Origin: Wenzhouxiangella sp. AB-CW3 | GTDB lineage: Bacteria > Pseudomonadota > Gammaproteobacteria > Xanthomonadales > Wenzhouxiangellaceae | Direction: 5' to 3' | Assembly: GCF_014725735.1 (NCBI RefSeq) | Contig: NZ_CP061368.1 | Location: 3,239,225 to 3,303,224, forward strand | Length of the DNA stretch: 64,000 bases | Part shown: positions 160-20,429 of the stretch, piece by piece | How the letters are laid out: every line of letters starts with the position of its first letter | Position numbering within the stretch: the first letter of the stretch is position 1 | Translations under genes and position numbers: made by a program | Notes under the pieces: model-generated | What the model was told of the DNA's origin: nothing | Database searches by the model: none | The model's input: only the letters and a program-made list of their open reading frames with translations

Positions 160-822
160 ATGACAACCGTCATCGTCGCCGACGATCATCCGCTGTTTCG
201 CGAAGCGCTGGGGCTGGCGTTGCAGAAGGCGCTGGGCGGGGTCGATATCGTCGAGGCCGGCAACATGGCCGAGCTCGAACAGGTATCGCGCGAACACGAA
301 CAGGCCGACCTGGTTCTGCTCGACCTGCACATGCCCGGCGTGCAGGGCTTTTCGGCGCTGATCTACCTGCGCGCGCACCACCCCGAACTGCCGGTGTGCA
401 TCATCTCGGCCAACGACAGCACGGTGGTCATGCAGCGCGCGATGGACCACGGCGCCGCCGCCTTCATCCACAAGTCCGCGTCCGTGGATGAAATCCGCGA
501 GGCCCTGCAAAGCGTACTGGCCGGCGACATCTGCTACCCGCCGGAACTGGATACCAGCGCCACCGGCACCCCCAGCGAGGAACTCGATATCGCCGGACAT
601 ATCGGTGAGCTGACACCACAACAGTTCCGGGTGCTGATGATGGTCGCCGAAGGGCTGCTCAACAAGCAGATCGCCTTCGAGCTCGATATATCCGAGGCCA
701 CCGTCAAGGCACACATGACTGCCATCTTCCGCAAGCTGGGAGTAAGCAATCGCACGCATGCCGTGTTGCTGACTCAGCGGCTTTCGGTGGAAGCTCCCAA
801 CTCTTCCGACGCTCGGCCCTGA
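160..822 (+). CDS. crbR: CrbR/ErdR-type response regulator (receiver + LuxR HTH)
   Basis: A 220-residue NarL/FixJ response regulator. The receiver covers about residues 3-120 with the acidic pair D8/D9, phospho-acceptor D55 in LLDLHMPG and conserved K105. A LuxR helix-turn-helix covers about 148-210 (ELTPQQFRVLMMVAEGL, ISEATVKAHMTAIFRKL). In Vibrio and Pseudomonas the CrbS/CrbR (MxtR/ErdR) system switches on acs and acetate uptake. The position directly after acs and near an SSS symporter, with a CrbS-like kinase at 6484-10083 on the other strand, supports this assignment. The family (LuxR-type regulator) is certain; the specific role is inferred from context. No clear ribosome binding site precedes the ATG because a pyrimidine-rich repeat occupies that position. 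Confidence 0.85.
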   Translation: MTTVIVADDHPLFREALGLALQKALGGVDIVEAGNMAELEQVSREHEQADLVLLDLHMPGVQGFSALIYLRAHHPELPVCIISANDSTVVMQRAMDHGAAAFIHKSASVDEIREALQSVLAGDICYPPELDTSATGTPSEELDIAGHIGELTPQQFRVLMMVAEGLLNKQIAFELDISEATVKAHMTAIFRKLGVSNRTHAVLLTQRLSVEAPNSSDARP

Positions 823-1665: not shown

Positions 1666-1699
1666 GCTCGACACCCGAACATACAGGGAGCGATACGCC

Positions 1700-1969
1700 A
1701 TGTCCGACGATAGATCCGCAGCCGCCTACTGGAAGGCGAACATCCGTGTCATATCCATCTGCCTGGTGATCTGGGCGCTGGTCTCGATCGGTTTCGGCAT
1801 CGTGCTCAGGCCCTTGCTGGCCATGCTGCCGATCACCATCGGCGGCACCGACCTGGGCTTCTGGTTTGCCCAGCAGGGTTCGATCCTGACCTTCATCGCC
1901 CTGATTTTCTACTACACCTGGTACATGAACCGGCTCGATCGCGAGTTCGGCGTGGACGAGCAGGAATAA
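1700..1969 (+). CDS. DUF4212 protein, small partner of SSS symporter
   Basis: An 89-residue membrane protein with two predicted helices (about 18-38 and 56-76), opening with an SAAAYWKANIRV head and ending in a charged tail (NRLDREFGVDEQE). This is the DUF4212 pattern, a family found almost always just upstream of a sodium:solute symporter. An AGGGAG ribosome binding site lies 9-10 bases before ATG 1700. It is 12 bases from the next gene, so the two are one operon. By analogy with YjcH-ActP it probably assists assembly or activity of the symporter in the inner membrane. Confidence 0.85.
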   Translation: MSDDRSAAAYWKANIRVISICLVIWALVSIGFGIVLRPLLAMLPITIGGTDLGFWFAQQGSILTFIALIFYYTWYMNRLDREFGVDEQE

Positions 1970-1981
1970 GGGAGAGACACC

Positions 1982-3754
1982 ATGGACCAGTTCACACTCA
2001 ACCTGATCGTCGTCGGCGCCACCTTTGCGCTCTATATCGGCATCGCCATCTGGGCGCGTGCCGGCACCACCGCCGACTATTACGCCGCCAGCCGCGGCGT
2101 CAACCCCGTCATCAATGGCGCGGCCACGGCCGCGGACTGGATGTCGGCCGCCTCGTTCATCTCCATGGCCGGGCTGATCGCCTTCGTCGGCTACGGCAAC
2201 TCCAGCTTCCTGATGGGCTGGACCGGCGGCTACGTGCTGCTGGCCCTGCTGCTGGCACCGTACCTGAGAAAGTTCGGACGTTTCACCGTGCCCGAGTTCA
2301 TCGGTGATCGTTTCTACTCGACCACCGCGCGCATCGTTGCCGTGATCTGCCTGCTGGTGATCTCGATTACCTACGTGATCGGCCAGATGACCGGCGCCGG
2401 CGTGGCCTTCTCGCGCTTTCTCGAAGTGCAGAACACCACCGGGCTGCTGATCGCCTCGACCGTGGTGTTCATCTACGCCGTGCTCGGCGGCATGAAGGGC
2501 ATTACCTACACCCAGCTTGCCCAGTACTGCGTGCTGATCACTGCCTACACCATCCCGGCGGTGTTCATTTCGCTGCAACTGACCGGCAACCCGGTGCCGC
2601 CGCTGGGCCTGTTCTCCACCCACGCCGAGTCGAGCCTGCCGCTGTTGACCAAGCTCGACCAGGTGCTGACCGAACTGGGCTTCCATGACTACACCGGCCA
2701 CCACGCCTCGACGCTCAACATGGTGCTTTTCACGCTGTCGCTGATGGTGGGCACGGCCGGTCTGCCGCACGTCATCATCCGCTTCTTCACCGTGCCGCGC
2801 GTGGCCGACGCCCGTCGCTCGGCCGGCTGGGCGCTGGTATTCATTGCGCTGCTGTATCTCACTGCCCCAGCCGTGGGCGCGATGGCCAAGCTCAACATCA
2901 TCACCACCATCTATCCCGACGGCACGGCCGAAGATCCGATCCGCTACGACGACAAACCCGACTGGATGATCAACTGGGAACAGACCGGCCTGCTGGCCTT
3001 CGAGGACAAGAACGAGGACGGTCGCATCCAGTACTACAACGACCGCTCCGAGGAGTTCCAGTCCGTGGCCAAGGCGCGCGGCTGGGAAGGCAACGAAATC
3101 GTCACCTTCAACCAGGACATCCTGGTGCTGGCCAACCCCGAGATCGCCAACCTGCCCGGATGGGTGCTGGCCCTGATCGCCGCCGGTGGTCTGGCCGCGG
3201 CCCTGTCGACCGCCGCCGGCTTGTTGCTGGCCATCTCGTCGGCCATCAGCCATGACCTGCTCAAATCGGTCTTCATGCCGAAAATCACCGACCGGCAGGA
3301 GCTGATGGCGGCGCGCGTATCCATGGCCTTTGCCATCGGCCTGGCCACCTACCTGGGCATGAACCCGCCCGGCTTCGCCGCCCAGGTGGTGGCGCTGGCC
3401 TTCGGGCTGGCGGCGGCCACCCTGTTCCCTGCCCTGATGATGGGCATCTTCTCGAAGAAGATGAATACCCAGGGCGCGGTGGCCGGCATGCTGGTGGGTC
3501 TGATCGCCACCCTGCTCTACATCTTCACCTACCTGGGCTGGTTCTTCATTCGGGGCACCAACATGCTGCCCAATGAACCCGACTACTGGCTGTTCGGCAT
3601 CTCGCCGCTGTCGTTCGGAGCCGTGGGCGCGATACTCAACTTCGCCGCCGCCATCGTGGTGATGAAGCTGACCGCCCCGCCGCCGGAGCGCATCCAGGAG
3701 CTGGTCGAATCCATCCGCGTCCCCCGCGGCGCCAGCGGTGCGGTCGATCACTGA
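1982..3754 (+). CDS. sodium:solute symporter, acetate/ActP-like (VC_2705 type)
   Basis: A 590-residue SSS-family transporter with about 13 membrane helices. Family features include the N-terminal [19 protein letters not shown] segment (the YY-A-A/G-R-x-V head typical of ActP-like carriers) and the sodium-site region around [17 protein letters not shown] hydrophilic insertion at about residues 305-380 ([15 protein letters not shown] onward) is characteristic of the VC_2705-like subgroup. It probably imports acetate or related monocarboxylates with Na+. DUF4212 upstream, acs at the window edge and CrbS/CrbR-type regulators nearby support that substrate class. The precise substrate is inferred. 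Confidence 0.85.
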
Positions 3755-6483: not shown

Positions 6484-9400
6484 TCAATCACTACCATGCT
6501 TTGTGGTATCGACCAGCCGTCCCAGCAGTGCGCGCAGTGCTGCCGGGCGGATGGGTTTGTGCAGCACGCGGCAGTCCTGGGCGCGTGCCTCGTTGCGCAC
6601 GGTCTCGGTCTGGTCGGCGGTAATCAGGATGGCGGGGATGGCGCTGTCGTAACGCGCCCGGATACGGCTGACCAGGTCGATGCCGTTCTTTTCGTCGTCG
6701 AGATGGTAGTCGGCCAGGATGATGTCGGGGCCGCCAACCAGGCGATCAACAACCTCGGCCACTTCGTCCTCGTCGCTGGCAGTGTGCACTTGACAGCCCC
6801 AGGGTTCGATCAACGAGGCCATGCCGGACAGAATCTCCGGCTCGTTGTCGATGCACAGCACCACCAGCCCGGCCAGATCGCGGGCAGAGCGACGCGGTCC
6901 ACTGCGTGCGGCATGCGCCACTTCCCCGTCCTGCCCCAACGGCACATCGATGGCAAAACAGGTGCCGTGTCCGGGCTCGGAACGCACGCTGACGGGATGG
7001 TCGAGCATGCGTGCGATACGTTCGACGATAGCCAGTCCCAGCCCGAGACCGCGTTGGCCGCGACCGCGCGAGCCTTGCAGGCGATGAAACTCGCGGAAGA
7101 TCGCCTCGGTCTGGTCGGCCGGAATACCGGGCCCGGTATCGATGACCTGGATGCTCAGAATGCCCGCCCGACGACGACAGCCCAATAGCACCCGGCCGGA
7201 TTCGGTGTAGCGCAGCGCATTGGACAGGAAGTTCTGCAGCACGCGCCGCAGCAGCTTGGGATCGGAGACCACCCGCGCCCGGCTGTCGACCTTGGAGAAC
7301 GCCAGCCCGCGTTCACGGGCAATGGCCGAGAATTCCGCATACAGGGGATCGAAGATCTCGGCAATCGAGAATTCACGAACCGAGGTCGGCATGGCGCCGG
7401 CATCCAGGCGCGAGATATCGAGCAGTGCCGAGAGCAGTTGCTCGGCACTGTCGAGCGAGCCGGCCAGGCGTTCGACCAGGTGGCGCTGCTCGTCGTCGAG
7501 CCGGTCCTGCTGATCCAGGGCCGATGCGAACAGGCGCGCGGCATTGAGCGGTTGCAGCAGGTCGTGGCTGGCCGCGGCCAGGAAACGGGTCTTGGACTGG
7601 TTGGCCTCGTCGGCCTCCTGCTTGGCCACGCGCAGGGCTTCCTCGACGCGGGCGCGCACCGTCACCTCCCGGCGCAGCTCCTCGTTGAGCTCGGTCAGTT
7701 CGCGCGTGCGCTCGGCCACGCGCTTTTCCAGTCCTTCCTTGGCCTCGGTCAGGCGCCGCTCGCTCTCGCGCAAGGCCTCTTCGGTGCGTTTGCGCTCGGT
7801 GATGTCGGTAAAACTGGTGACAAAGCCGCCGCCGGGCATGGGATTGCCGCGGATCTCGATCACCCGGCCATCGGTACCCACGCGCTCGTAGAAATGCGGG
7901 CTGCGCTTCTTCAGCCAGTCGAGGCGGCGCGCGATCAACTCCTCCTGTTCGCCCGCGCCCAGCCGTCCCTGGCTGGCGTTGTAGCGCAGCACGTCCTCGA
8001 TCGGCCGGCCGATGTGAATCAGGCCTTCCGGGTACTCGAACATCTCCAGGTAGGCACGGTTCCAGGCCACCAGCCGCAGGTCGGCATCGACCACGCTGAC
8101 CGCCTCGGACAGATTCTCCATGGCCGATTGCAGCAACTCCTGGCGGAATTTCAATTTCTCGGAGGTCTGGTCGAGCAGGTTGACCACCGCATCGAAGGGC
8201 ATGCCGGAACCGGCCAGCGCCGAGGACAGTACCTGGCGCGCCGAACTCGCCCCGATCACGCCCGAAAGCACACGCTCGGTGTGGCGGACCAGCTCGCCGT
8301 CGGCCGGCTGATCGATCGCGAGTTCCCGTCCGCGCTGACCGGCGTAATCATCAAAGGTCTCGCGCGTGCGCCGCTCGCCGAGAAAGCGCCGGGTCAGGTC
8401 CATGAAGTCGGCCACCGTGGCAATACCGGTGCGTGGCAACACGCTGGTGGTGGTGCCGCCGGCCGCGCCCATGAAGGCATTGGCCTGGATGCGGTCGATG
8501 GGACGTTCACGCCCGGCCAGCGAGCCGATGACCAGGGCACAGACATTCAACGTCAGTGACCAGAACACGCCGTGACTGAGACGGTCGTCGAAAGCAATTC
8601 CGAACAGCGCTTCGGGGTGCAGCCAGGTCAGTCCCGCCGGACCGGTCTCCAGCCAGCCCGGCAACACCCCGGTGCCACGCAGGATCACCGGCAGCATCAG
8701 GCAATAGAACCACACGACAAAACCGGTCGTCAGCCCGGCCATGGCCCCGGGACGATTGGCGCCGCGCCAGTACACGGCAGCCACCACCAGCGGCCCGAAC
8801 TGGGCGACCGCGGCAAACGACAGCAGACCGATTCCTGCCAGGCTTTCCTCGTAGCCGAACAGCCGGTAGTAACCCCAGGCAAGCAGCAGCAGGGCAACAA
8901 TGACAATACGCCGCACCATCAGCAGCAGCCGGCCGAGGTCGGCATCGCTGCGCGCCACGGCCTGTCGGTTGCGCAGCAGGGCCGGCATGACGATATCGTT
9001 CGACACCATGATCGACAGCGCCACCGCCGCCACGATGACCATGCCGGTGGCCGCGGAGAATCCGCCGAGCATGGACAGCAGGGTCAGCCATTCCTGGTCG
9101 GCCGCCATGGGCAGGGTCAGCATGAAGGTGTCGGGCGACACGCCCTCGCCGAAAGTCAGCAGGCCGGCCACGGCCACCGGCACGATGAACAGGGCGATCA
9201 GCACCAGGTAGGCGGGAAACAGCACGCGCGCCCAGCGCACGTCACGCTCGCTGGTCGACTCGACCACGGCAACATGAAACTGACGCGGCAGACAGAAGGC
9301 CGCCAGCATGGCCAGCACCATGATGGTGAGAAAGCTCAGCCTGAGATTTTCCGGCGCGAACATGCTCGCGACCAGCGCATCGTCGACCGTGAACGGATTG

Positions 9401-10083
9401 AGCGTATCGAGCCCATCGAACATCGCCCAGGTCACGAACACCCCGACGGCGAGAAAGGCCAGCAACTTGACCAGCGACTCGAAGGCCACCGCCAGCATCA
9501 GTCCCGGATGGTGCTCGGTGGCATCGAGCTGGCGCGTGCCGAACAGGATGGTGAACACGGCCAGCAGCAGGGCAATCAGCAAGGCGGTATCGAGAATCGG
9601 ACCCGGTTCTTCCGGCAACACGGTGGTCGCACCGGGATCGCTGGTGAGCAGGTTGAAGCCCATGGCGATGCCCTTGAGCTGCAGGGCGATGTAAGGCAGC
9701 ACACCCAGCACGGCGACCACGGTGACCAGCACGGCCAGGCGCTGGGTCTTGCCGAAACGCGAGGCGAGAAAGTCGGAGATCGAGGTGACGTTCTGTTCCT
9801 TGCTGATGCGTACCACGCGCAGCACAAAGCCGCCGAACACGGCAAACACCAGCAGGGGACCGAGATAGACCGGCAGGAAATCCCAGCCGGTGGTGGCGGC
9901 CTGGCCGACCGCGCCGTAGAAGGTCCAGGAGGTGCAGTAAACGGCCAGCGACAGCGAGTAGATCACCGGCTGGGAGAACAGCGGGCGCCCCTGGACCGAG
10001 CGCCGGTCACCCCACCAGGCGACCAGAAACAGCAGCGCCACGTAGGCCAGCGAAACCAGAATGATGAGCGTGGCGGAGAACAA
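6484..10083 (-). CDS. crbS: CrbS/MxtR-type hybrid sensor kinase with SSS transporter domain
   Basis: About 1199 residues. An SLC5/SSS transporter-like domain with about 13 helices fills the N-terminal half. It is followed by a PAS domain (LLQSAMENLSEAVSVVDADL to FTDITERKR), a coiled coil, HisKA with phospho-His 840 in ASHDLLQPLNAARLF, HATPase (GRGQRGLGLGLAIVERIA) and a receiver with phospho-Asp 1125 (ILADYHLDD). This order is that of CrbS/MxtR/ErcS'-type kinases, which sense carboxylate flux and drive CrbR/ErdR. The cognate-type regulator is at 160-822. The TTG at 10083 was chosen because the family begins directly at the first helix (FSATLIILVSLAYVALLF). An in-frame TTG at 10143 would add 20 residues encoded by a degenerate repeat. 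Confidence 0.85.
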   Translation of the reverse strand: MFSATLIILVSLAYVALLFLVAWWGDRRSVQGRPLFSQPVIYSLSLAVYCTSWTFYGAVGQAATTGWDFLPVYLGPLLVFAVFGGFVLRVVRISKEQNVTSISDFLASRFGKTQRLAVLVTVVAVLGVLPYIALQLKGIAMGFNLLTSDPGATTVLPEEPGPILDTALLIALLLAVFTILFGTRQLDATEHHPGLMLAVAFESLVKLLAFLAVGVFVTWAMFDGLDTLNPFTVDDALVASMFAPENLRLSFLTIMVLAMLAAFCLPRQFHVAVVESTSERDVRWARVLFPAYLVLIALFIVPVAVAGLLTFGEGVSPDTFMLTLPMAADQEWLTLLSMLGGFSAATGMVIVAAVALSIMVSNDIVMPALLRNRQAVARSDADLGRLLLMVRRIVIVALLLLAWGYYRLFGYEESLAGIGLLSFAAVAQFGPLVVAAVYWRGANRPGAMAGLTTGFVVWFYCLMLPVILRGTGVLPGWLETGPAGLTWLHPEALFGIAFDDRLSHGVFWSLTLNVCALVIGSLAGRERPIDRIQANAFMGAAGGTTTSVLPRTGIATVADFMDLTRRFLGERRTRETFDDYAGQRGRELAIDQPADGELVRHTERVLSGVIGASSARQVLSSALAGSGMPFDAVVNLLDQTSEKLKFRQELLQSAMENLSEAVSVVDADLRLVAWNRAYLEMFEYPEGLIHIGRPIEDVLRYNASQGRLGAGEQEELIARRLDWLKKRSPHFYERVGTDGRVIEIRGNPMPGGGFVTSFTDITERKRTEEALRESERRLTEAKEGLEKRVAERTRELTELNEELRREVTVRARVEEALRVAKQEADEANQSKTRFLAAASHDLLQPLNAARLFASALDQQDRLDDEQRHLVERLAGSLDSAEQLLSALLDISRLDAGAMPTSVREFSIAEIFDPLYAEFSAIARERGLAFSKVDSRARVVSDPKLLRRVLQNFLSNALRYTESGRVLLGCRRRAGILSIQVIDTGPGIPADQTEAIFREFHRLQGSRGRGQRGLGLGLAIVERIARMLDHPVSVRSEPGHGTCFAIDVPLGQDGEVAHAARSGPRRSARDLAGLVVLCIDNEPEILSGMASLIEPWGCQVHTASDEDEVAEVVDRLVGGPDIILADYHLDDEKNGIDLVSRIRARYDSAIPAILITADQTETVRNEARAQDCRVLHKPIRPAALRALLGRLVDTTKHGSD

Positions 10084-10099
10084 TTTGCTCTTGTCTTCT

Positions 10100-10120
10100 C
10101 GTGGTCTTCCCGTGGTCTTC
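10100..10120. repeat. CGTGGTCTTC tandem repeat at kinase 5' end
   Basis: Two copies of CGTGGTCTTC (10100-10109, 10111-10120) lie in an 11-bp period with flanking degenerate copies. They look like another short intergenic repeat family that extends into the apparent 5' end of the reverse-strand kinase gene, which argues for a downstream start. Confidence 0.55.
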
Positions 10121-10197: not shown

Positions 10198-10266
10198 ATA
10201 AGCGCGGCCTGTCGCCCACCCTGCTAACCTGATCATCGAAGCCCGCGGAATCGGGAGGGCGGCTTG

Positions 10267-11343
10267 ATGCCGAGCGCCGATCAGGTCACCGGCCACGCGC
10301 CGGAAACGGCAATACTGCTTGATCATGTCAACCAGGCCAGCGACGGGCGGGCGCTAGCCGACATGGCCTCGCGGATGGGCAGGTTGATGCTGAAGCTGCA
10401 AGAGCGCAAGACTGGAGCAGCGGAGATCGCGCTGGCCGTCAGCCGGGTCGGCCGCGCCGTGACCGACCGCCTGCTGGCGCTGGCCGAACGAGACCTGGGA
10501 CCGCCGCCGGTGGCTTATGCCTTCATCGTTGCCGGATCGCAGGCCCGCGGCGAACAGATCGCCGGCTCCGACCAGGACAACGGTTTGATCCTGTCAAATG
10601 ACTACCGCGAGGACCATCACGGCTCCTATTTCGAACAACTGGCCGACCAGGTCTGCAGCGGCCTGGCCGAGGCCGGCTATCGTCGCTGCCCCGGCGATAT
10701 CATGGCCATCAATCCACGCTGGCGACGTCCTCTGGCCGACTGGCGGGGGCGCTTTGCCCAATGGATCGAACGCGCCGACCCGGACGCCCTGCTCAAGGTA
10801 TCGATCTTTTTCGATTTGCGCTGCATTCGCGGCGAGGCCGGCCTGCTCGATCAGCTTCGTGAAGAAGTGCTCGGCATGACGCGCTCGTCAACGCTTTTCC
10901 AGCCCCGTCTGGCAGCCGCCGCGCTCGGGTTCCGGCCGGCGCTGGGCTGGTTCGGGAGACTGCGATTTCATCGTGATGGCGATAAACAGACCATGGATCT
11001 GAAACGCCATGGCATCACGCCGGTGGTCGACCTCGCCCGGGTTCATGCACTGGCGCTGGGCGAGGCGGCGTTGTCGACCCGCAAGCGCTTGAAGCTGGCT
11101 ACGTCAGCCAACCTGATCAGCGGCGACGATGCCGACAGGCTCATCGATGCCTTCGACCATGTCGGCGGCATTCGCATCGCCCACCAGTGCCGCCGCATCC
11201 GCGACGGTGAACACCCGGACTACCAGCTACGCGCCGACGAGATCGATCAGCGCGACCGCAAGGCGCTGAAACGTTCCCTGGCAACCATCCGCGATGCCCA
11301 ACAGGCCATGGCCCGGCGCTACCACGCCGAGGCATTCCGGTGA
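10267..11343 (+). CDS. DUF294 nucleotidyltransferase-like protein (stand-alone)
   Basis: A 358-residue protein with the nucleotidyltransferase-fold signature GSQARGEQ (residues 90-97) and SDQDNG (101-106), as in GlnD-like DUF294 proteins. It is followed by a DUF294 C-terminal domain (MDLKRHGITPVVDLARVHAL to the end). It lacks the cNMP and CBS domains of its paralogue at 16998-18815. The metal-binding Asp pair in SDQD is intact, so nucleotidyl transfer to a protein or small molecule is plausible, but the reaction of this family is not established. ATG 10267 has GGGAGG seven bases upstream and is preferred to TTG 10264. It overlaps the next gene by 4 bases and leads the operon 10267-18815. Confidence 0.8.
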   Translation: MPSADQVTGHAPETAILLDHVNQASDGRALADMASRMGRLMLKLQERKTGAAEIALAVSRVGRAVTDRLLALAERDLGPPPVAYAFIVAGSQARGEQIAGSDQDNGLILSNDYREDHHGSYFEQLADQVCSGLAEAGYRRCPGDIMAINPRWRRPLADWRGRFAQWIERADPDALLKVSIFFDLRCIRGEAGLLDQLREEVLGMTRSSTLFQPRLAAAALGFRPALGWFGRLRFHRDGDKQTMDLKRHGITPVVDLARVHALALGEAALSTRKRLKLATSANLISGDDADRLIDAFDHVGGIRIAHQCRRIRDGEHPDYQLRADEIDQRDRKALKRSLATIRDAQQAMARRYHAEAFR

Positions 11344-11537
11344 AAGGGCGCCTGAGCCAGTGGTTGGTGGTGCTGTTTGCAGCCGGCTGGCTGCTGTTCG
11401 GCTTTCCGCTGATGATGCTGTGGGACCGAGAAGCCGCCCTGTTCGGCCTGCCCCTGTTTCCGCTGGGACTGTTCATCGTGTGGGGTGTGCTCATCATCGC
11501 CCTGGCCTGGCTGATGGAAAGCGGAGGACGCCGCTGA
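11340..11537 (+). CDS. small two-helix membrane protein overlapping SSS kinase gene (CbrX-like)
   Basis: A 65-residue protein starting at GTG 11340 (overlapping the DUF294 stop) with two hydrophobic helices (about 7-28 and 39-59) and a charged end (MESGGRR). Its stop overlaps the ATG of the SSS kinase (TGATG). A small overlapping ORF upstream of the SSS kinase cbrA, called cbrX, is known in Pseudomonas, and this gene has the same position and size. DUF4212 plays a comparable small-partner role for SSS carriers. Homology to CbrX is not demonstrated. Confidence 0.65.
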   Translation: MKGRLSQWLVVLFAAGWLLFGFPLMMLWDREAALFGLPLFPLGLFIVWGVLIIALAWLMESGGRR

Positions 11538-14290
11538 TGCTGCCTCTCTGGCTGGTCATTGGCGTCTCGTTCGCCTACCTGCTGATCCTGTTCGCCATCG
11601 CCTGGTGGGGCGACCGGCGCGCCGCGGCCGGACGCTCGGTCATCGGCAATGCCTGGGTCTACGCGTTGTCGATCGCGGTCTACTGCACGGCCTGGACCTA
11701 TTTCGGCAGTGTCGGGCGGGCGTCGGAAGAAGGCGTGTGGTTCCTGCCCATCTATCTCGGCCCCATGCTGGCGATGATCCTGGCCTGGCTGGTGATCCGC
11801 AAAATGGTGCGCATCGCCAAGACCTGGCGCATCACCTCGGTGGCCGACTTCATCGCCAGCCGCTACGGCAAGAGCCCGCTGATCGCCGCGTTGGTCACGC
11901 TGATCACGGTGGTCGGCATCGTCCCCTACATTGCCCTGCAGCTCAAGGCCATCTCGGCCGGCTTTGCCCTGATGACCGGCCCGGAGGCCACGACCGTGAC
12001 CGAGGCAACCGGTGCCTGGTGGCAGGACAGCACCTTCTACCTGGCGCTGGCCCTGGCCGGCTTCATCATCGCCTTCGGCACCCGTCATCTCGACATGACC
12101 GAACGCCATGAGGGCATGGTCGCGGCGATCGCGTTCGAGTCGGTGGTCAAGCTCATCGCATTTCTTGCCGCCGGCATTTTCGTGGTCTGGGGACTGTACG
12201 GAGGCCTGGGAGACCTGTTCGGTCGTGCCATGGCCGACGACAGTCTCAAGGGACTGCTGCGTTTCGACCAGGGCACCAGCGACTTCATCTACACGCAGTG
12301 GTTCGCGCTGATCCTGCTGGCCGGCCTGTCGGTGCTGTTCCTGCCGCGCCAGTTCCAGGTCATGGTGGTCGAGAACGTCGACGAGCGTCACATCAAGCGC
12401 GCCGCCTGGGTGTTCCCGCTCTACCTGTTTCTGATCAACCTGTTCGTCATTCCCATTGCGCTGGGCGGCCTGATGTACTTCGGCGCCGACACGGCCAACC
12501 CGGACTTTTTCGTGCTCTCGCTGCCGCTGGCCGAGGGGGCGAAAACGCTGGCCCTGTTCGTGTTCATCGGCGGGCTGTCGGCGGCCACCGGCATGGTCAT
12601 CGTCGAGGCCATTGCCGTGTCCACCATGATCTGCAACGACCTGGTCATGCCGGCACTGCTGCGTACCCGCCGCTTTCGCGGGCGCAGCGGCGGCGATCTG
12701 ACCCGCTTGCTGCTGACCATCCGCCGGCTGGCCATCATCGGCCTGCTGCTGCTGGGCTATCTCTACTTCCACCTGGCCGGCGAGGCCTATGCGCTGGTGG
12801 CCATCGGCCTGATCAGCTTTGCCGCCGTCGCCCAGTTCGCCCCGGCCGCGCTGGCCGGCATGTACTGGAAGGGCGGCACCGCCGCCGGCGTGCTGGCCGG
12901 GCTGGTCGCCGGTTTTGCCCTGTGGGCCTGGACGCTGATGCTGCCGTCGATTGCCCGCTCCGGCTGGCTGGCAATGGACTTTGTCGAGCACGGTCCGTTC
13001 GGCATCGGTTGGCTCAGGCCCGAATCCCTGCTGGGCATGAGCGGCTTCGATCACCTCACCCATTCGCTGTTCTGGAGCCTGCTGGCCAACATCGGCGCCT
13101 TCGTGCTGGTGTCCTTGCTGACCCGGCCCTCGGCACGCGAGGCCAGCCAGGCCGAACGTTTCGTCGATGTCTTCGAACGGGCCGACGGGCATGAACCGCT
13201 GTTCTGGCAGGGCCGCGCCAGTCGTGAGGATTTGTATGCACTGGCCGAACGCTTCCTCGGTCCGGAGGCCACCGCACGGTTGTTCGAGGAACATGCCGCG
13301 GCCATCGGCGTGGGCGAGATCGAGCATATCCCGGCCGACGCGCGCCTGGTCGAACGGGTCGAACACCAGCTTGCCGGTGCCATCGGCTCGGCCTCGGCCC
13401 GGGTGATGATGGCTTCCACGGTCGACGAGGAGCCGCTGGAACTCGACGATGTCATGCGCATCCTCGAGGAAGCCTCGCAGATTCGCCAGTACTCACTGGC
13501 GCTGGAGGAAAAATCACGCTCGCTGGAGCAGGCCACCGCGGAACTGCGTGCCGCCAACGAGAAACTGAAAAGCCTGGACCGGCTCAAGGACGACTTCATG
13601 TCCTCGGTCACCCATGAACTGCGCACGCCGCTGACTTCCATTCGCGCCACCGCCGAGATGATGCGCGACGATGCCGACATGCCCGTCAACCAGCGCCAGC
13701 AGTTTCTCGACATCATGGTGCGCGAGTCCGAACGACTGAGCCGGCTGGTCGGCCAGGTACTGGACCTGGCGCGCATCGAGGCCGGTCATGCCGAGTGGCA
13801 CAACAGCGACGTCGACATGGCCGAGATCGTCGATCAGGCCGTGGCCAGCATCACCGAACCCTACAGCGACAAGGGCGCGAAGCTGGAAGTGCGCGGCGAT
13901 CGACAACCGGCCACGATCCGGGCCGATGCCGACCGCCTGGTGCAGGTGCTGCTCAACCTGCTCTCCAACGCATTGCGTCACCTGCCCGAAGCGAACGGAC
14001 AGGTGATCGTCACCATCAACGATAAGCGCGACGGCGTGACCGTGACCGTGGCCGACAACGGGCCCGGCATCAGCCACGAAGAACAGGCCGAGGTATTCGA
14101 CAAGTTCCGCCAGGTCGGCGACCGCCACCGCCGCCAGGGCGGCACCGGCCTGGGGCTGCCGATCAGCCGCCAGATCATCGAACACTTCGGCGGCCACATG
14201 TGGGTGGCATCCGAGCCCGGCGAAGGCGCCACCTTCGGCTTCCACCTGCCCCGAAACATCGACCGCGGTGATGGCGAGATGGACAAATGA
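11537..14290 (+). CDS. SSS-domain sensor histidine kinase (CbrA-like)
   Basis: 917 residues: an SLC5/SSS transporter-like domain (about 13 helices, residues 1-540), a linker, a coiled coil (SLALEEKSRSLEQATAELRA), HisKA with H693 in SSVTHELRTPLTS and HATPase with NLLSNALRHLPE, DNGPGI and GTGLGLPISRQI motifs. There is no receiver domain, unlike the kinase at 6484-10083. CbrA in Pseudomonas (SSS + kinase, control of carbon/nitrogen use) is the best-known relative, but its partner CbrB is an NtrC-type regulator, whereas the gene next door here is a single receiver. ATG 11537 was chosen because it overlaps the upstream stop and opens on the first helix; the frame continues upstream without family features. 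Confidence 0.85.
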   Translation: MLPLWLVIGVSFAYLLILFAIAWWGDRRAAAGRSVIGNAWVYALSIAVYCTAWTYFGSVGRASEEGVWFLPIYLGPMLAMILAWLVIRKMVRIAKTWRITSVADFIASRYGKSPLIAALVTLITVVGIVPYIALQLKAISAGFALMTGPEATTVTEATGAWWQDSTFYLALALAGFIIAFGTRHLDMTERHEGMVAAIAFESVVKLIAFLAAGIFVVWGLYGGLGDLFGRAMADDSLKGLLRFDQGTSDFIYTQWFALILLAGLSVLFLPRQFQVMVVENVDERHIKRAAWVFPLYLFLINLFVIPIALGGLMYFGADTANPDFFVLSLPLAEGAKTLALFVFIGGLSAATGMVIVEAIAVSTMICNDLVMPALLRTRRFRGRSGGDLTRLLLTIRRLAIIGLLLLGYLYFHLAGEAYALVAIGLISFAAVAQFAPAALAGMYWKGGTAAGVLAGLVAGFALWAWTLMLPSIARSGWLAMDFVEHGPFGIGWLRPESLLGMSGFDHLTHSLFWSLLANIGAFVLVSLLTRPSAREASQAERFVDVFERADGHEPLFWQGRASREDLYALAERFLGPEATARLFEEHAAAIGVGEIEHIPADARLVERVEHQLAGAIGSASARVMMASTVDEEPLELDDVMRILEEASQIRQYSLALEEKSRSLEQATAELRAANEKLKSLDRLKDDFMSSVTHELRTPLTSIRATAEMMRDDADMPVNQRQQFLDIMVRESERLSRLVGQVLDLARIEAGHAEWHNSDVDMAEIVDQAVASITEPYSDKGAKLEVRGDRQPATIRADADRLVQVLLNLLSNALRHLPEANGQVIVTINDKRDGVTVTVADNGPGISHEEQAEVFDKFRQVGDRHRRQGGTGLGLPISRQIIEHFGGHMWVASEPGEGATFGFHLPRNIDRGDGEMDK

Positions 14291-14292
14291 CA

Positions 14293-14398
14293 GTTCACCA
14301 CAGACACACGGAGTGCACAGAGGACAGAAACAAGAAATGAAACTAAAGGAATTTTTATCCAGTTCTTCCTCTGTGAACTCTGTGCCTCTGTGGTGAAC
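14293..14398. repeat. CACCACAGAGGCACAGAG-family hairpin element
   Basis: The left arm 14293-14326 (GTTCACCACAGACACACGGA...) and the right arm 14366-14398, which reads GTTCACCACAGAGGCACAGA... on the reverse strand, are imperfect inverted copies separated by about 40 AT-rich bases. The element lies entirely in the gap between the SSS kinase and the receiver gene. Same family as 4530-4556 and 6445-6474. Confidence 0.8.
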
Positions 14399-14425
14399 GA
14401 TGTTTGAAGAAACAAGGAGTTTTCG

Positions 14426-14794
14426 ATGAGCACCGTACTGATTGCCGACGACGAACCCAACATCGTCATCTCGCTGGAATACCTGATGCAGCGCGAGGGC
14501 CACGAGGTGCTGGTTGCGCGCGACGGTGATGAGGCGCTGGCGATGATTGCCGAGCACCGCCCCGACCTGGTGCTGCTCGACGTGATGATGCCGGGTCGCT
14601 CCGGTTTCGAGGTCCTCAAGGCGGTGCGCGGCAACGATGAGATGGCCGCCACCCGCATCCTCATGCTGACCGCGCGCGGGCGGGATACCGACCGCACCAA
14701 GGGCGAGGCACTGGGCGCCGACGGCTACGTGGTCAAGCCGTTCTCCACGCGCGAACTGGCCGAACAGGTGCGCGATATGCTGGGAGAGAACTGA
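14426..14794 (+). CDS. single-domain response regulator (CheY-like receiver)
   Basis: A 122-residue receiver with no output domain. It has acidic residues D8/D9 (LIADDEP), phospho-acceptor D52 (LLDVMMPG), Thr in LMLTARG and Lys in YVVKPFS. An AAGGAG ribosome binding site precedes ATG 14426. As the gene directly after an SSS kinase without its own receiver, it is the natural phospho-acceptor of that kinase. It ends 2 bases before the exonuclease fusion gene, so signal output to that protein or to another effector by protein contact is plausible. The partner assignment is inferred from order. Confidence 0.88.
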   Translation: MSTVLIADDEPNIVISLEYLMQREGHEVLVARDGDEALAMIAEHRPDLVLLDVMMPGRSGFEVLKAVRGNDEMAATRILMLTARGRDTDRTKGEALGADGYVVKPFSTRELAEQVRDMLGEN

Positions 14795-14796
14795 AC

Positions 14797-16959
14797 ATGC
14801 GGCGTGCCGAAAAGTGGCTGTTTGCCGGCGTCGCCCTGGTCGGGCTGGTCTGCCTGGCCTGGCTGATCGTTGCCGGCGTGCTGCTGTGGGCGGTGCTGGA
14901 TCCGGCCGACTGGGCGACGGTCACCGAGGCCCTGGGCGGACGCGCCGGGCTGCTGATCTTTCTCTGGGCGCTGGCGCTGGTGCCGGTCACCGGTACCTTG
15001 CGTTTTTTGATTGCACGCTACATCACCGCGCCCGCCCGCCTGGCCGAGGCGGCCCGGCTGCGGCTGGACAACCCGGTCGATGAACCGCTGAAAGTCGACG
15101 GCAGCCGCGAGACGCAACAGCTCGCCGACATCTTCAATACCCTGATCACGCGCCATCGCGAATTTCAGGAAGCCACCGATGAGCGCGTGGCCGAGGCCGG
15201 ACGGCGCATCGAACTGGAACGCGGCCGGCTGGCCGCCCTGATGTCGGAACTGCGCAAGAGCGTGATCGTGTGCAATCTCGACGGGCGCATCCTGCTCTAC
15301 AACAACCGGGCCCGGCAGCAGTTTCGCCGGCTGTCGGGCGCTGCCGAGGTCACCGGCGGCGCGGAACTGATGGGACTGGGCCGTTCGATCTACACCGTGC
15401 TCGACCGCCGCCTGGTTGCCCACGCGCTCGATACCGTCCGGCGCCGGCTCGAAAGCGGCGCGGAGAGTCCCGGCGCCCAGTTCGTGACCGCCACGCCGGG
15501 CGGCAAGCTCCTGCGCGTGCAGGTCACGCCGGTGTCGGAGGTCGGCGACGGCGAAGCCTCGCCAACACGCATGGCCGGCTTCGTGCTGCTGACCGAGAAC
15601 ATCACCGACGACATGCAGGCTGATGCCGAAAAGGATCGCCTGCTGCAGTCGCTGACCGAGGGCAGCCGTTCGGCACTGGCCAACACCCGCGCCGCCATCG
15701 AGATCCTGGCCGATGACGAGGTCGATGAGGCCCTGCGCGACCGCCTGCTCGGCGTGATCCACGAGGAAGTCACCTCCTTGAGCGAACGCATCGACGAGTT
15801 GAGCGCCAGCTCCACCGAGCGACTGCGCTCACGCTGGCCGCTGGAGGAAATGCTCGGGAGCGAACTGGTCGATGCCGCCGTGCGCCACCTGGCCGAAGAA
15901 GGGGAAATCCGCGTGGCGCACGAAGGCAACGGCGAGGAGATCTGGCTGAAGGTCGACAGCTTTTCCATCCTGCAGGCACTGGCCCATCTGGCCGGGCGAA
16001 TCACGGATGAACACTCGGCCGGATCGGTCAGCCTGCGCCTGGTCCGCCACGGCAAACGAGCCGCGCTGGATCTGCTGTGGCAGGCACGGGGCGAGGGCCC
16101 GAGCGACCCGGCCTGGGAGAACGAACCGATGCAGGCGGGCAATGAGCAGCTGTCCATGAGCGTGAACGATGTCATGGAACGCCACGGCGGCACCTGCTGG
16201 CATGAAAGCACAAACGGCGAGAAACACTGCTTCCGTCTGCTGCTGCCGGTCGCCGAGCCGGTCGAGCGCGGCACCGGGGCGCTGGCCGGCGATCGCGAAA
16301 GCCGACCCGAGTACTACGACTTCGACCTGTTTGCCACCACCCCTGAGACCCATTCGCTCGACGATGCCGAGCTGGGCCGACTCACTTTCACCGTCTTCGA
16401 CACCGAGACCACCGGCCTGGACCCGACACACGACGAAATCATCCAGATCGGCGCGGTGCGCATCGTCAATGGCCGCCTGCTGCGGCATGAGTTCTTCGAG
16501 CAACTGGTCAACCCGGGCCGCAGCGTTCCGGCCGCCAGCACCGCCATCCACGGCATCACCCCGGAGATGGTCCGCGGCCAGCCGGACCTGGAAACCGTGC
16601 TGCCGGCCTTCCATGCCTTTTGCCAGGACACGGTGCTGGTAGCCCACAATGCCGCTTTCGACATGCGTTGCCTGCAGGTGGCCGAGAACCGGACAGGGGT
16701 GGTGTTCGACCAGCCGGTGCTTGACACCCTGCTGCTCTCGGCACTGGTCCACGAGCACCAGGCCGAACACAACCTGGAAGCGCTTGCCCAACGCTTCGGC
16801 CTGGCCATCGTCGGTCGCCACACCGCCATCGGCGATGCCATGGTCACCGCCGAAATCTTCGTGCGCCTGATCCCGCTGCTAGCCGAGCAGGGCATTCATA
16901 CCCTCGGCCAGGCTCGCTCGGCCGCACAGAAAACCCAGTTCGCGCGCATGCGTTACTGA
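14797..16959 (+). CDS. membrane sensor pseudokinase fused to DEDDh (DnaQ-like) 3'-5' exonuclease
   Basis: 720 residues. Two membrane helices (about 8-34 and 49-70) are followed by a HAMP-like helix, a coiled coil, a PAS-like segment (SELRKSVIVCNLDGRILLYN), then a region laid out like HisKA/HATPase. The H-box is SLTEGSRSALANTR with no phospho-His, and the usual N and G boxes are not recognisable, although the closing ERHGGTCWHES-FRLLLPV pattern remains. The C-terminal exonuclease (about 525-720) keeps all three motifs: DTETTG (D535), HNAAFD (H617) and HTAIGDA (H675, D680). DnaQ-like exonucleases adjacent to cNMP-CBS-DUF294 and SSS genes recur in gammaproteobacteria. Activity is probable; the substrate (DNA, RNA or a nucleotidylated product) is unknown. 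Confidence 0.85.
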   Translation: MRRAEKWLFAGVALVGLVCLAWLIVAGVLLWAVLDPADWATVTEALGGRAGLLIFLWALALVPVTGTLRFLIARYITAPARLAEAARLRLDNPVDEPLKVDGSRETQQLADIFNTLITRHREFQEATDERVAEAGRRIELERGRLAALMSELRKSVIVCNLDGRILLYNNRARQQFRRLSGAAEVTGGAELMGLGRSIYTVLDRRLVAHALDTVRRRLESGAESPGAQFVTATPGGKLLRVQVTPVSEVGDGEASPTRMAGFVLLTENITDDMQADAEKDRLLQSLTEGSRSALANTRAAIEILADDEVDEALRDRLLGVIHEEVTSLSERIDELSASSTERLRSRWPLEEMLGSELVDAAVRHLAEEGEIRVAHEGNGEEIWLKVDSFSILQALAHLAGRITDEHSAGSVSLRLVRHGKRAALDLLWQARGEGPSDPAWENEPMQAGNEQLSMSVNDVMERHGGTCWHESTNGEKHCFRLLLPVAEPVERGTGALAGDRESRPEYYDFDLFATTPETHSLDDAELGRLTFTVFDTETTGLDPTHDEIIQIGAVRIVNGRLLRHEFFEQLVNPGRSVPAASTAIHGITPEMVRGQPDLETVLPAFHAFCQDTVLVAHNAAFDMRCLQVAENRTGVVFDQPVLDTLLLSALVHEHQAEHNLEALAQRFGLAIVGRHTAIGDAMVTAEIFVRLIPLLAEQGIHTLGQARSAAQKTQFARMRY

Positions 16960-16997: not shown

Positions 16998-18815
16998 ATG
17001 AACGCCACCGACATTCGCGAATTCCTGAGTACCGTTGCGCCCTTCTCGGAGCTGGAGCGGGAGGCCATCGACAACCTGGCCGGATACTTCAGCGAGAAAA
17101 GCTTTGCCGGGGGCAAGGAAATCGGGACTTTCAGACAACCCGGCCGGCACGGGCTGTTCGTGATCCGCGCCGGCGCCGTCGCCATTCTCGACGAGGCCGG
17201 CCAGGAACTGGAACAGCGCGGCCGGGGCGAACTGTTCGGCCACGCCATCGCCCTGGACGGCGGCGTGCGCGACTATCGTGTCCGTGCCGTCGAGGACTGT
17301 CACCTGTTTCACCTGGATGCCGGCATCCTCGATCAGTTCAGTGCCGACCACGACATCGTGCGCCGTTTTCTCACCGCCGATCCCGGCGAGCGTTTGCGCT
17401 CGCTGGCCCAACGCAGCACCGGCACCCTGGCCGACATCGAGCTGCGCCAGCCAATCACGGCAAGCGCCGACACCCCCATTGCCCGCTGCGCGTCCCTGAT
17501 GGCCAGCCACCAGGTCAGTTGCCTGCCGATCACCGCCGGCGACGACCTGGTCGGCATCGTCACCGACCGCGACCTGCGCACCCGCGTGCTGGCCGCCGGC
17601 ATCGATCCGTCCGCCGCCATCGACCAGGTCATGACCCGCGACCCGCTGACCGCGCGCCTGGTCACCCGCATCGACGATGCGCTGGTGGAAATGATGCGCC
17701 TGGGCATTCACCACCTGCCGGTGCGCGACGAGTCCGGACGACTGGCCGCGGTGGTCAGTGCCGGCGATCTGCTCAGACTGCAGGCGCCGCATCCGCTCCG
17801 GCTGGTGCGCGACATCCAGCGTGCCGATGCGGTGGACGATCTGACCCGGCTGGCGCGCAAGGGTCCCTGCCTGCTGGCCAGCCTGGCCGGACGCGGCAGC
17901 GAAGTGACCGAAGTCGGGCGCATTGCCAGCATGATCACCGATGCCTGCACCAAGCGCCTGCTGCAACTGGCGCAGGAGCAACTCGGCCAGGCGCCCATGG
18001 AATGGACCTGGCTGGCCTTCGGCTCGCAGGCGCGCATGGAACAGGGCCTGGTCAGCGACCAGGACAACGGCCTGCTGCTGGCCGAAGCGCCCGACGAGGC
18101 GGCGTCACGGTACTTCAAGCAACTGGCCGAGTTCGTCTGCGACGGACTGGCCGACTGCGGCTACATTTACTGCCCCGGCGATGTCATGGCCAAGAGCCAG
18201 TGGCGCATGTCATTCGATCAGTGGCGGCACACTTTCGAGGGCTGGATGCTCGAACCCGAGCCGCAGTCGGTAATGAACTCCTCGATCTTCTTCGACATGC
18301 GTCCGGTCGCCGGTGATATTGATCTGGGCCGGAGACTGCATGGCGAAGTGCTCGACCAGGCCCGCGAGAGCAAATTGTTCCGGCGTTTCCTGGCTGCCGA
18401 GTCCATGCAGCATCGCCCGCCCCTGGGCTTTTTCGGGCGGCTGGTCCAGGAAAGCAGCGAGGACAAGGGTCAGGGCATTAATCTCAAAAAACGCGGCGTG
18501 CTGCCGATTGTCGACCTGGCCCGCGTGCGCGCGCTCGAGGGCGCCATCCGGGTCGTCCACACCGAAGAGCGCATCCAGTCCGCCGCCGAGGCCGGCATCA
18601 TGAGCGAGCGCGATGCCGACGACCTTATTCATGCCTTCCGCTTCATCGGCAATATCCGACTGAAGCACCAGGTCGCGCTCTACGAGCGCGGCGAGAAACC
18701 CAACCACCTGGTCGACCCCGATACACTTTCGGGCCTGCACCGTCGCTACCTGCGCTCGGCCTTCGGCATCGTGCGCACCGCGCAGAAGGCGCTGGCCCAG
18801 CGGTACCAGGTCTAG
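16998..18815 (+). CDS. cNMP-binding / CBS / DUF294 nucleotidyltransferase-like regulator
   Basis: 605 residues in four parts: a cyclic-nucleotide-binding-like domain (about 10-125), two CBS domains (about 150-205 and 208-262, with VTDRDL and VSAGDL ends), a DUF294 nucleotidyltransferase-like domain with GSQARMEQ (342-349) and SDQDNG (353-358), and a DUF294 C-terminal domain (about 470-605, INLKKRGVLPIVDLARVRAL). The catalytic-type Asp pair is intact. CBS pairs usually bind adenine nucleotides, so the protein could read cell energy or cyclic nucleotide state and adjust a partner. It is a paralogue of 10267-11343. An AAGGGAG site lies 8 bases before ATG 16998. The gene closes the operon. Confidence 0.88.
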   Translation: MNATDIREFLSTVAPFSELEREAIDNLAGYFSEKSFAGGKEIGTFRQPGRHGLFVIRAGAVAILDEAGQELEQRGRGELFGHAIALDGGVRDYRVRAVEDCHLFHLDAGILDQFSADHDIVRRFLTADPGERLRSLAQRSTGTLADIELRQPITASADTPIARCASLMASHQVSCLPITAGDDLVGIVTDRDLRTRVLAAGIDPSAAIDQVMTRDPLTARLVTRIDDALVEMMRLGIHHLPVRDESGRLAAVVSAGDLLRLQAPHPLRLVRDIQRADAVDDLTRLARKGPCLLASLAGRGSEVTEVGRIASMITDACTKRLLQLAQEQLGQAPMEWTWLAFGSQARMEQGLVSDQDNGLLLAEAPDEAASRYFKQLAEFVCDGLADCGYIYCPGDVMAKSQWRMSFDQWRHTFEGWMLEPEPQSVMNSSIFFDMRPVAGDIDLGRRLHGEVLDQARESKLFRRFLAAESMQHRPPLGFFGRLVQESSEDKGQGINLKKRGVLPIVDLARVRALEGAIRVVHTEERIQSAAEAGIMSERDADDLIHAFRFIGNIRLKHQVALYERGEKPNHLVDPDTLSGLHRRYLRSAFGIVRTAQKALAQRYQV

Positions 18816-18891: not shown

Positions 18892-19407
18892 ATGATCAGC
18901 CCCGTTCGCGTCATTGCAGCCCTGACGCTTCTGATCAGCCTGGTTTCGACCGGCATCGCAGAAGAGCCAGCCATTTCCTACCAGCGCATTCACTCGCTGA
19001 TTACCGACCAGGACAACCGCATCAGCCTGAGGGTATGGGATGACGGACGCATGGAGATCCGATTTCCTTCCTACACCACTCGCGCCGGCACCTATCATCG
19101 CGACCTGCAAGACGATGAGATGGCCGAACTTCATGCCATTTTCGAGACCTTGCAGCCCATCGATCAGTCCCGACTCGACCAGCACCTGGACCAGTCGCGC
19201 AGTCAGACGCCGACCCATGTGGCCGACGCCGATGTCGTGCACTTCGAACGTCGCAGGAACGACGACCTGGAGATTTCATTGCGAGCCCCGGCACCGGACG
19301 TATGGTCACGCATTGCCCGGGATGTGGATGAACTCGCCGTCATGAACAGCGCAGAACAGGCATTGCGCAGCTGGATGGATCAGCAGATTGCCAGGTCGGG
19401 AGAATGA
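18892..19407 (+). CDS. hypothetical secreted protein
   Basis: A 171-residue protein, not recognised. It has an N-terminal signal peptide (ISPVRVIAALTLLISLVSTGIA, cleavage before EEPAIS) and a soluble domain of mixed charge with no cysteine and no visible catalytic motif. A GGTGGAG site lies just before ATG 18892. The stop overlaps the start of the metzincin-like gene (ATGA), so the two are coupled. A role as inhibitor or chaperone of the downstream protease is conceivable from that coupling only. Confidence 0.65.
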   Translation: MISPVRVIAALTLLISLVSTGIAEEPAISYQRIHSLITDQDNRISLRVWDDGRMEIRFPSYTTRAGTYHRDLQDDEMAELHAIFETLQPIDQSRLDQHLDQSRSQTPTHVADADVVHFERRRNDDLEISLRAPAPDVWSRIARDVDELAVMNSAEQALRSWMDQQIARSGE

Positions 19408-20429
19408 TTATGAAAACCGTACTGTTGGCCGGACTGATGCTCGCTGCCCTGCCATGCGCCCACGCAGGCGTGTTCATTTTTGCCGAGGGCACCAATGGCC
19501 TGGCTCCGAATGCCAATCTCATCACCCACCCCACCGGATATACCGGCGCCGACAATCAACACTTGAGCATCTCCGTGTGCATACACCCCGACAGTGAAAG
19601 CAAGACGGAGCTGGAGATTCCGGTCCGCAATTCCATCACGGTCTGGAATCAGTTCACACCCACACAGGGCAACGTGAATCGCCCGGACCCGGAGCTGGAC
19701 GTCAGTGAGGTCGATGCGGAAAGCGTGCTGTTGCACGAAGTCGGCCATTGCATTGGTCTGGCTCACCCCAACCTGGCCTCGGAGTCCGGCCTGTCAGGCA
19801 GTGATGCCCATTACGCCAAGACCCTGGAAGGCCCCAACGATGTCTATGACCTGGATCCAGGAGCAGACCAGGTGATCGGTACTCGGGACGACCAGCGCGG
19901 CGACGACCTCAACCTCAACTGGTTTCACGAGAGCAGCAATGACCCCTTCTCGTGGCCGGCGACTATCGATGGCAGCACCTATTCAGTTGATGTTTCGGAT
20001 CTCCCCACCGGCCATGAGTTTGTCGAAATCGCCGGCTGGGACGTCTGGGATGAACGGGAGCTGGATCACACCATCGCGGTGATGTTTCAGGGCATCACCA
20101 ACTCCGAGACCCGGCGCGAACTAAATCATGACGATGCCGCCATGATCCGTCTGGCTATGGGCGGCACCGACCGCACCCAGGGAACGGCCAAGGACTACAC
20201 CTATGAGCTGGAGTATGGTGGCGTCGATGATGACTGTGACATTACGGTCAAAATGACCGGCCAGAGCTTCGGAGTCTGCCAGGTATCCGCGACGTCCATC
20301 AGCACTAATCACTTCAGCATTTCGAGCGCCGAGATCGAGTTGGGCTCAACCTCGGAGTTCAACTGGCATTTCAACACCGAGCTGCTCGAGGAATTCCAGA
20401 TATTCCATGACCGCTTCGAACAGGAGTAA
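19404..20429 (+). CDS. secreted metzincin/matrixin-like metalloprotease
   Basis: 341 residues with a signal peptide (KTVLLAGLMLAALPCAHA, then GVFIF). The zinc-binding sequence HEVGHCIGLAHPN fits the metzincin consensus HExxHxxGxxH with Glu as general base. No methionine-turn was assigned, so metzincin membership rests on the zinc motif. The C-terminal half looks like a beta-rich accessory region, and the protein ends IFHDRFEQE, resembling a short tail I associate with secreted proteins of Xanthomonadales-like bacteria. ATG 19404 is used; ATG 19410 is possible. It probably degrades extracellular protein. Confidence 0.78.
   Translation: MIMKTVLLAGLMLAALPCAHAGVFIFAEGTNGLAPNANLITHPTGYTGADNQHLSISVCIHPDSESKTELEIPVRNSITVWNQFTPTQGNVNRPDPELDVSEVDAESVLLHEVGHCIGLAHPNLASESGLSGSDAHYAKTLEGPNDVYDLDPGADQVIGTRDDQRGDDLNLNWFHESSNDPFSWPATIDGSTYSVDVSDLPTGHEFVEIAGWDVWDERELDHTIAVMFQGITNSETRRELNHDDAAMIRLAMGGTDRTQGTAKDYTYELEYGGVDDDCDITVKMTGQSFGVCQVSATSISTNHFSISSAEIELGSTSEFNWHFNTELLEEFQIFHDRFEQE

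Follow-up and report, generated by a model that had tools for sequence, protein, structure and literature searches.

A histidine kinase core lacking its phosphotransfer residues, fused to a DEDDh exonuclease in an acetate gene cluster of Wenzhouxiangella

DivL of Caulobacter is a pseudo-histidine-kinase that reads a response regulator (RR), DivK~P: it has no kinase activity, and it recognizes a single-domain RR through its DHp (PMC4211667). The substitution R553A in this region disrupts DivK binding (PMC4211667). In Pseudomonas putida, the free exonuclease PP_0353 and the CBS-DUF294 protein PP_0354 form an operon in the MxtR/ErdR regulon; a PP_0353 deletion mutant grows more slowly on pyruvate, and a role in mRNA decay has been speculated by its authors (PMC9927547). 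Here we describe a gene of Wenzhouxiangella sp. AB-CW3 that invites comparison with both, located in a 64,000-nucleotide stretch (NZ_CP061368.1, positions 3,239,225 to 3,303,224; "the window", to which all coordinates refer). Its product shares with DivL a DHp-CA scaffold, a replaced phospho-His and a conserved Arg at the +3 position (R291, the counterpart of DivL R553, PMC4211667), and DivL is among its top Foldseek matches. By analogy, it may also work like DivL in reading an RR. Unlike DivL, which carries a Tyr in place of the His and signals to the kinase CckA, it carries a Glu, lies in an acetate cluster and bears a DEDDh exonuclease in cis. With PP_0353/PP_0354 it shares the pairing of an exonuclease with a CBS-DUF294 protein and the link to CrbS/R-type acetate signaling, but PP_0353 is free of membrane, PAS or pseudokinase parts, whereas the exonuclease in the window forms the C-terminal part of a membrane protein of 720 aa. 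As in SLC5-STAC systems of the CrbS/CrbR (MxtR/ErdR) type, an SLC5-type kinase adjoins the gene and acs and actP cluster with it; CrbR, however, activates transcription, while the RR beside the fused gene has no output domain. The nuclease has the DEDDh fold and five catalytic residues of PolC and DnaQ epsilon, but it comes with no polymerase part and is instead membrane-linked, behind N-terminal signaling domains. No description of a kinase–exonuclease fusion was found in the open-access literature searched.

The host genome is complete (3.84 Mb), and its closest named relatives found are Wenzhouxiangella metagenome-assembled genomes (MAGs). With acs just upstream of the window, the genes run in the following order:

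160..822, + strand: CrbR-like response regulator of about 220 aa (an ORF, named from sequence and context)
1697..1968, + strand: DUF4212 small subunit (PF13937, E 1.2e-30)
1982..3753, + strand: ActP-like acetate symporter (an ORF with relatives in homologous loci, likewise named from sequence and context)
6484..10113, − strand: hybrid SSF-PAS-HisKA-HATPase-REC kinase, CrbS/NahK-like (Pfam)
10264..11343, + strand: short DUF294 nucleotidyltransferase without CBS (Pfam)
11537..14290, + strand: SLC5-type (sodium:solute symporter) histidine kinase, non-hybrid, the proposed RR kinase (HisKA E 2e-19 and HATPase_c E 1.2e-31, both intact)
14426..14794, + strand: single-domain RR of 122 aa, the proposed input (Response_reg E 1.7e-28, no output domain)
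14797..16959, + strand: fused pseudo-histidine-kinase/DEDDh exonuclease gene (ATG start, 720 aa)
16998..18815, + strand: cNMP-binding, 2×CBS, DUF294 nucleotidyltransferase (Pfam)

The stop codon of the RR gene lies 2 nt short of the ATG of the fused gene, and a promoter and terminator scan around the latter returned nothing exceeding chance. The symporter parts of the non-hybrid kinase and the SSF-bearing hybrid kinase align at 44%. The earlier note on this gene gave its anatomy correctly, but it missed the RR directly upstream, the active SLC5-type kinase as a source of input and the acetate-utilization context. Some further features of the region and genome deserve mention in their own right. 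The intergenic stretch that separates the SLC5 kinase from the RR contains a repeat, CTCTGTGCCTCTGTGGTGAA, with an inverted copy (14378-14397 and nearby, about 14300-14400); it recurs in the window at about 6454 and 4528, and genome-wide it has 29 matches with at most two mismatches, often as inverted pairs, versus 0 for a reversed control. At 19404-20429 there is a putative secreted zinc metalloprotease with the motif HEVGHCIGLAH. Elsewhere in the same genome a second, free exonuclease sits beside a DUF294 gene (L147:7692-10432; genome C1:3655748-3656880), an arrangement resembling the PP_0353/PP_0354 pair; this free copy and the fused exonuclease share 32% identity.

The fused protein is laid out in the order TM-TM-(HAMP)-PAS-DHp-CA-DEDDh exonuclease, with these features, all on the + strand:

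14815..14895: transmembrane helix 1, about aa 7-33 (hydropathy, 19-aa mean at most 2.9; helix in the AF2 model)
14944..15021: transmembrane helix 2, about aa 50-75 (hydropathy up to 2.06; AF2)
15007..15153: weak HAMP-like linker, aa 71-119 (Pfam HAMP E 0.15, below cut-off)
15214..15606: PAS domain, about aa 140-270 (Pfam PAS E 0.019, sub-threshold; well conserved; AF2 confidence low in parts)
15607..15819: pseudo-DHp helical hairpin, aa 271-341 (two-helix hairpin in AF2; ungapped alignment to the neighboring kinase)
15658..15660: E288, site of the absent phospho-His (alignment of 140 DHp-bearing members)
15667..15669: R291, at the +3 position (the R of HELR)
15829..16266: pseudo-CA of HATPase_c fold, aa 345-490, without N and G1 boxes (Pfam, alignment, AF2, VIA)
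15997..15999: R401, replacing the N-box Asn (alignment)
16393..16860: DEDDh 3′-5′ exonuclease domain (RNase_T), aa 533-688 (E=1e-39)
16399..16407: D535 and E537 of DTETTG (conserved in 156/156)
16660..16662: D622 of HNAAFD (155/156, one gap)
16819..16836: H675 and D680 of HTAIGDA (155/156, one gap)

The two N-terminal helices, seen in both hydropathy and the AF2 model, bear out the membrane placement proposed earlier. The loop between them is only about 16 aa long, so the fused protein has no periplasmic sensor domain.

The middle of the protein is poorly visible to profile searches. HATPase_c gave a weak match at aa 355-486 (Pfam E 2.4e-4, below Pfam's cut-off), and HisKA gave none, matching in only 11 of 72 relatives. 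Because the exonuclease filled the VIA list for the whole model, the kinase region (aa 258-496) was modeled alone, from an alignment of 70 sequences from which two rows from annotated plasmid records had been excluded. The result was a confident DHp hairpin and CA sandwich (AF2 pLDDT 86.8), whose best Foldseek matches were HK853, LvrB and DivL (E about 1e-11 for HK853 and DivL); VIA gave the CA domain a Z of 16.3 over 129 residues (rmsd 2.3). The PAS-HisKA-HATPase-like middle that the earlier note had read from the sequence is thus a kinase-like fold, with PAS and HAMP weak by Pfam. That reading would have fallen with a missing kinase fold or an intact ATP site; the fold was found and the intact site was not.

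What the fold has lost is evident from the active kinase next door. The segment SLTEGSRSALANTR of the fused protein pairs gap-free with SVTHELRTPLTSIR of that kinase, aligning SLTEGSRSAL with its SVTHELRTPL, and therefore E288 stands in for the His. Among 140 DHp-bearing members of the family, position 288 is E in 112, D in 12 and H in none, nor does the alignment place a phospho-accepting His within one column on either side; its absence, which the earlier note had pointed out, is therefore a family trait and no local mutation. The ATP site has fared similarly, as likewise claimed from the sequence: the N-box Asn is R401 here (R or K in 108/140), and the G1-box Asp is A430 (G in 113/140, D in one), such that both boxes of a HisKA-kinase ATP site are missing from the fused protein and family-wide. 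R291, by contrast with these losses, is R in 138 of the 140. Together, these data confirm that the fused protein contains a histidine kinase core without phosphotransfer residues. An unconventional kinase or ATPase activity might be imagined to persist, since the HATPase_c fold is kept and ATP-bound kinases are among the Foldseek matches, but with no His in the family, an Arg or Lys for the N-box Asn in most members and the G1 Asp replaced in nearly all, such an activity is highly improbable.

The C-terminal domain presents the opposite picture. All five catalytic residues (D, E, D, H, D) are in place in the three motifs that had been recognized in the earlier note. Their conservation was counted on 156 rows, namely the fused protein and 155 relatives passing an 80-bit exonuclease filter, and is therefore favored by the choice of sample. 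The fold is DnaQ-like, with a VIA Z of 24.2 to the PolC exonuclease (191 residues, rmsd 2.0) and of 20.8 to the epsilon exonuclease (164 residues, rmsd 1.9). The DEDDh 3′-5′ exonuclease thus looks intact, and metal-dependent hydrolysis is predicted. Its nearest solved relatives are the PolC and epsilon exonuclease domains and DinG, a kinship that would suit a nuclease for DNA repair, proofreading or phage defense whose membrane anchor was borrowed, as would the PADLOC DEDDh and PDC-S48 models lying over the nuclease part. The surroundings, however, are acetate transport and two-component signaling with no repair or defense islands, and phage records match only parts of the fused protein, leaving such a role quite improbable. 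A defense-system reading of the fused protein as a whole was rejected, the PADLOC models covering the nuclease domain only, as was a phage origin of the fused gene, given the partial matches. In one genus (L137, L139, L207:7075-9243), the TM-PAS-pseudo-DHp-CA part is kept and the nuclease motifs are lost, making a pseudokinase joined to a pseudonuclease, with a diverged REC domain next to the DHp; the nuclease is therefore not invariably the output.

Full-length relatives occur in Wenzhouxiangella, Colwellia, many Burkholderiales and Rhodocyclales, Competibacter, Accumulibacter, a Pseudomonas, Paracoccus plasmids and deltaproteobacterial MAGs. This domain layout is shared by over 140 relatives of several proteobacterial classes, so the fusion is not a product of chance. 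The usual gene run is an SLC5-type histidine kinase, a single-domain RR and the fused gene, often with DUF294 and acetate genes nearby, and the Paracoccus plasmids carry this same cassette. Across 80 named loci, the neighbors include the single-domain RR in 66, the SLC5 kinase in 52, ActP in 48, DUF294 in 46 and Acs in 20. Two sets of variants were also seen. Proteins of about 700-750 aa (L140/L204, L141/L205, L217, L218) have a related exonuclease, N-terminal in L140 and L141, and show no match to the other domains of the fused family. Shorter relatives of 467-512 aa (L180-L184, L206) consist of a PAS-like part and the exonuclease, without DHp or CA, adjoined by DUF294 and ActP/Acs.

The family also varies naturally in the RR and in the DHp. 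To compare the two, each domain and the presence of an adjacent RR were scored in 155 relatives, and exclusion of three contig-edge fragments left 152. Genomes without an adjacent RR were searched for RR orthologues, whose scores were bimodal (at least 150 bits vs. at most 125), and low-scoring DHp cases were decided by reading the segment and its motif. Where an RR is present, adjacent or as an orthologue elsewhere in the genome, the DHp is kept in 130 members and lost in none; where it is absent, the DHp is kept in six (L093, L094, L115, L126, L129, L199) and deleted, shortened or unrecognizable in 16. The RR-bearing group includes six members with DHp profile scores of 11-23 bits (L177, L187, L191-193, L197), judged retained by motif reading, and the RR of L187 is not a clear orthologue. 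The 16 DHp losers all retain the exonuclease, and nearly all adjoin DUF294 and acetate genes. In a phylogeny computed with the DHp columns left out, DHp loss requires seven changes, six of them forced by well-supported (starred) branches. Ten independent pairs differ in the RR, and in these the DHp changed the same way in seven and the opposite way in none, with three ties (all branches; two-sided sign test about 0.016, post hoc, since the data that revealed the pattern also served to test it); restricted to starred branches, a stricter test gave a median p of 0.125. Half of the losses (8/16) come from a single family. In the alphaproteobacterial family f233, a separate clade of RR beside the SLC5 kinase was present in 10/10 genomes examined, and an additional RR adjoins the fused gene only in the two genomes keeping the DHp; the genome-wide absence of the RR thus has a narrower sense for f233, which retains a different, kinase-adjacent RR. 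Mutual information between the RR and the fused protein was not enriched in the DHp (0.5×), its signal being dominated by shared history. Overall, lineages losing the RR tend to lose the DHp, the putative RR docking part.

This pattern bears on whether the pseudokinase does more than hold the protein together. Conceivably, it is only a dimerizing spacer, such that a PAS ligand gates the exonuclease directly, the RR has some other partner and the DHp disappears by neutral drift. The 467-512-aa relatives, which dispense with DHp and CA yet keep their PAS-like part, exonuclease and gene neighbors, fit such an arrangement, as does the standing of PAS among the best-conserved non-nuclease parts. 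Against it, drift would have to spare all 130 RR-bearing members while striking about seven times independently, always in RR-less lineages, and R291 would have little reason to be so nearly invariant; we consider a mere spacer unlikely.

We favor instead, as somewhat the more probable account of the fused protein, a DivL-like membrane-anchored pseudokinase that reads the RR and passes the signal in cis to gate the 3′-5′ exonuclease. Judging from family knowledge and gene order, the SLC5-type kinase upstream would sense a small carboxylate such as acetate or pyruvate and phosphorylate the single-domain RR. The RR~P would then dock on the pseudo-DHp hairpin, as DivK~P does on DivL, and would exchange no phosphate there because the His is a Glu and the ATP site is gone. 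Docking together with PAS input may change the dimer and so turn the exonuclease on or off. Finally, the exonuclease, perhaps with the DUF294 nucleotidyltransferase, might trim the 3′ end of an RNA or DNA and thereby adjust acetate or pyruvate metabolism. The observed anatomy, the conserved cassette and the RR–DHp co-loss frame this account, and control of the nuclease by the scaffold is supported only indirectly, by the conserved synteny and the co-loss; the RR could act with another partner instead. Equally, docking need not lead to the nuclease at all: the pseudo-DHp may serve as a decoy or sink, retaining RR~P at the membrane and modulating RR signaling, while the nuclease acts on its own. 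DivL binding does lengthen the half-life of DivK~P (PMC4211667), and the one genus whose nuclease is apparently dead keeps its DHp beside a diverged REC domain. Three points nevertheless make a decoy distinctly unlikely: elsewhere in the family the catalytic residues of the nuclease are conserved, the RR lacks an output domain from which it could be titrated, and several proteobacterial classes have kept the fusion in cis. Because RR and DHp have been lost naturally in the family, the docking hypothesis is directly testable.

We therefore return to gating of the exonuclease by an RR-reading scaffold, and regard the fusion as a pseudokinase of a known, RR-reading kind with an unusual output. 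More tentatively, and as a possibility we would not yet call probable, the cassette may constitute a two-component pathway that acts through a nuclease and not through a promoter. Its members would be a carboxylate-sensing kinase of the SLC5 type, a single-domain RR, a membrane pseudokinase gating a 3′-5′ exonuclease and a nucleotidyltransferase that partners this exonuclease at the same 3′ ends, together providing post-transcriptional control of acetate and pyruvate metabolism in many proteobacteria. If this is true, a two-component system that senses carbon would be tied directly to nucleic-acid turnover, the acetate regulon's poorly understood pair of exonuclease and DUF294 protein (PP_0353/PP_0354) would gain a regulatory input, and a second kind of RR-sensing pseudokinase would join DivL.
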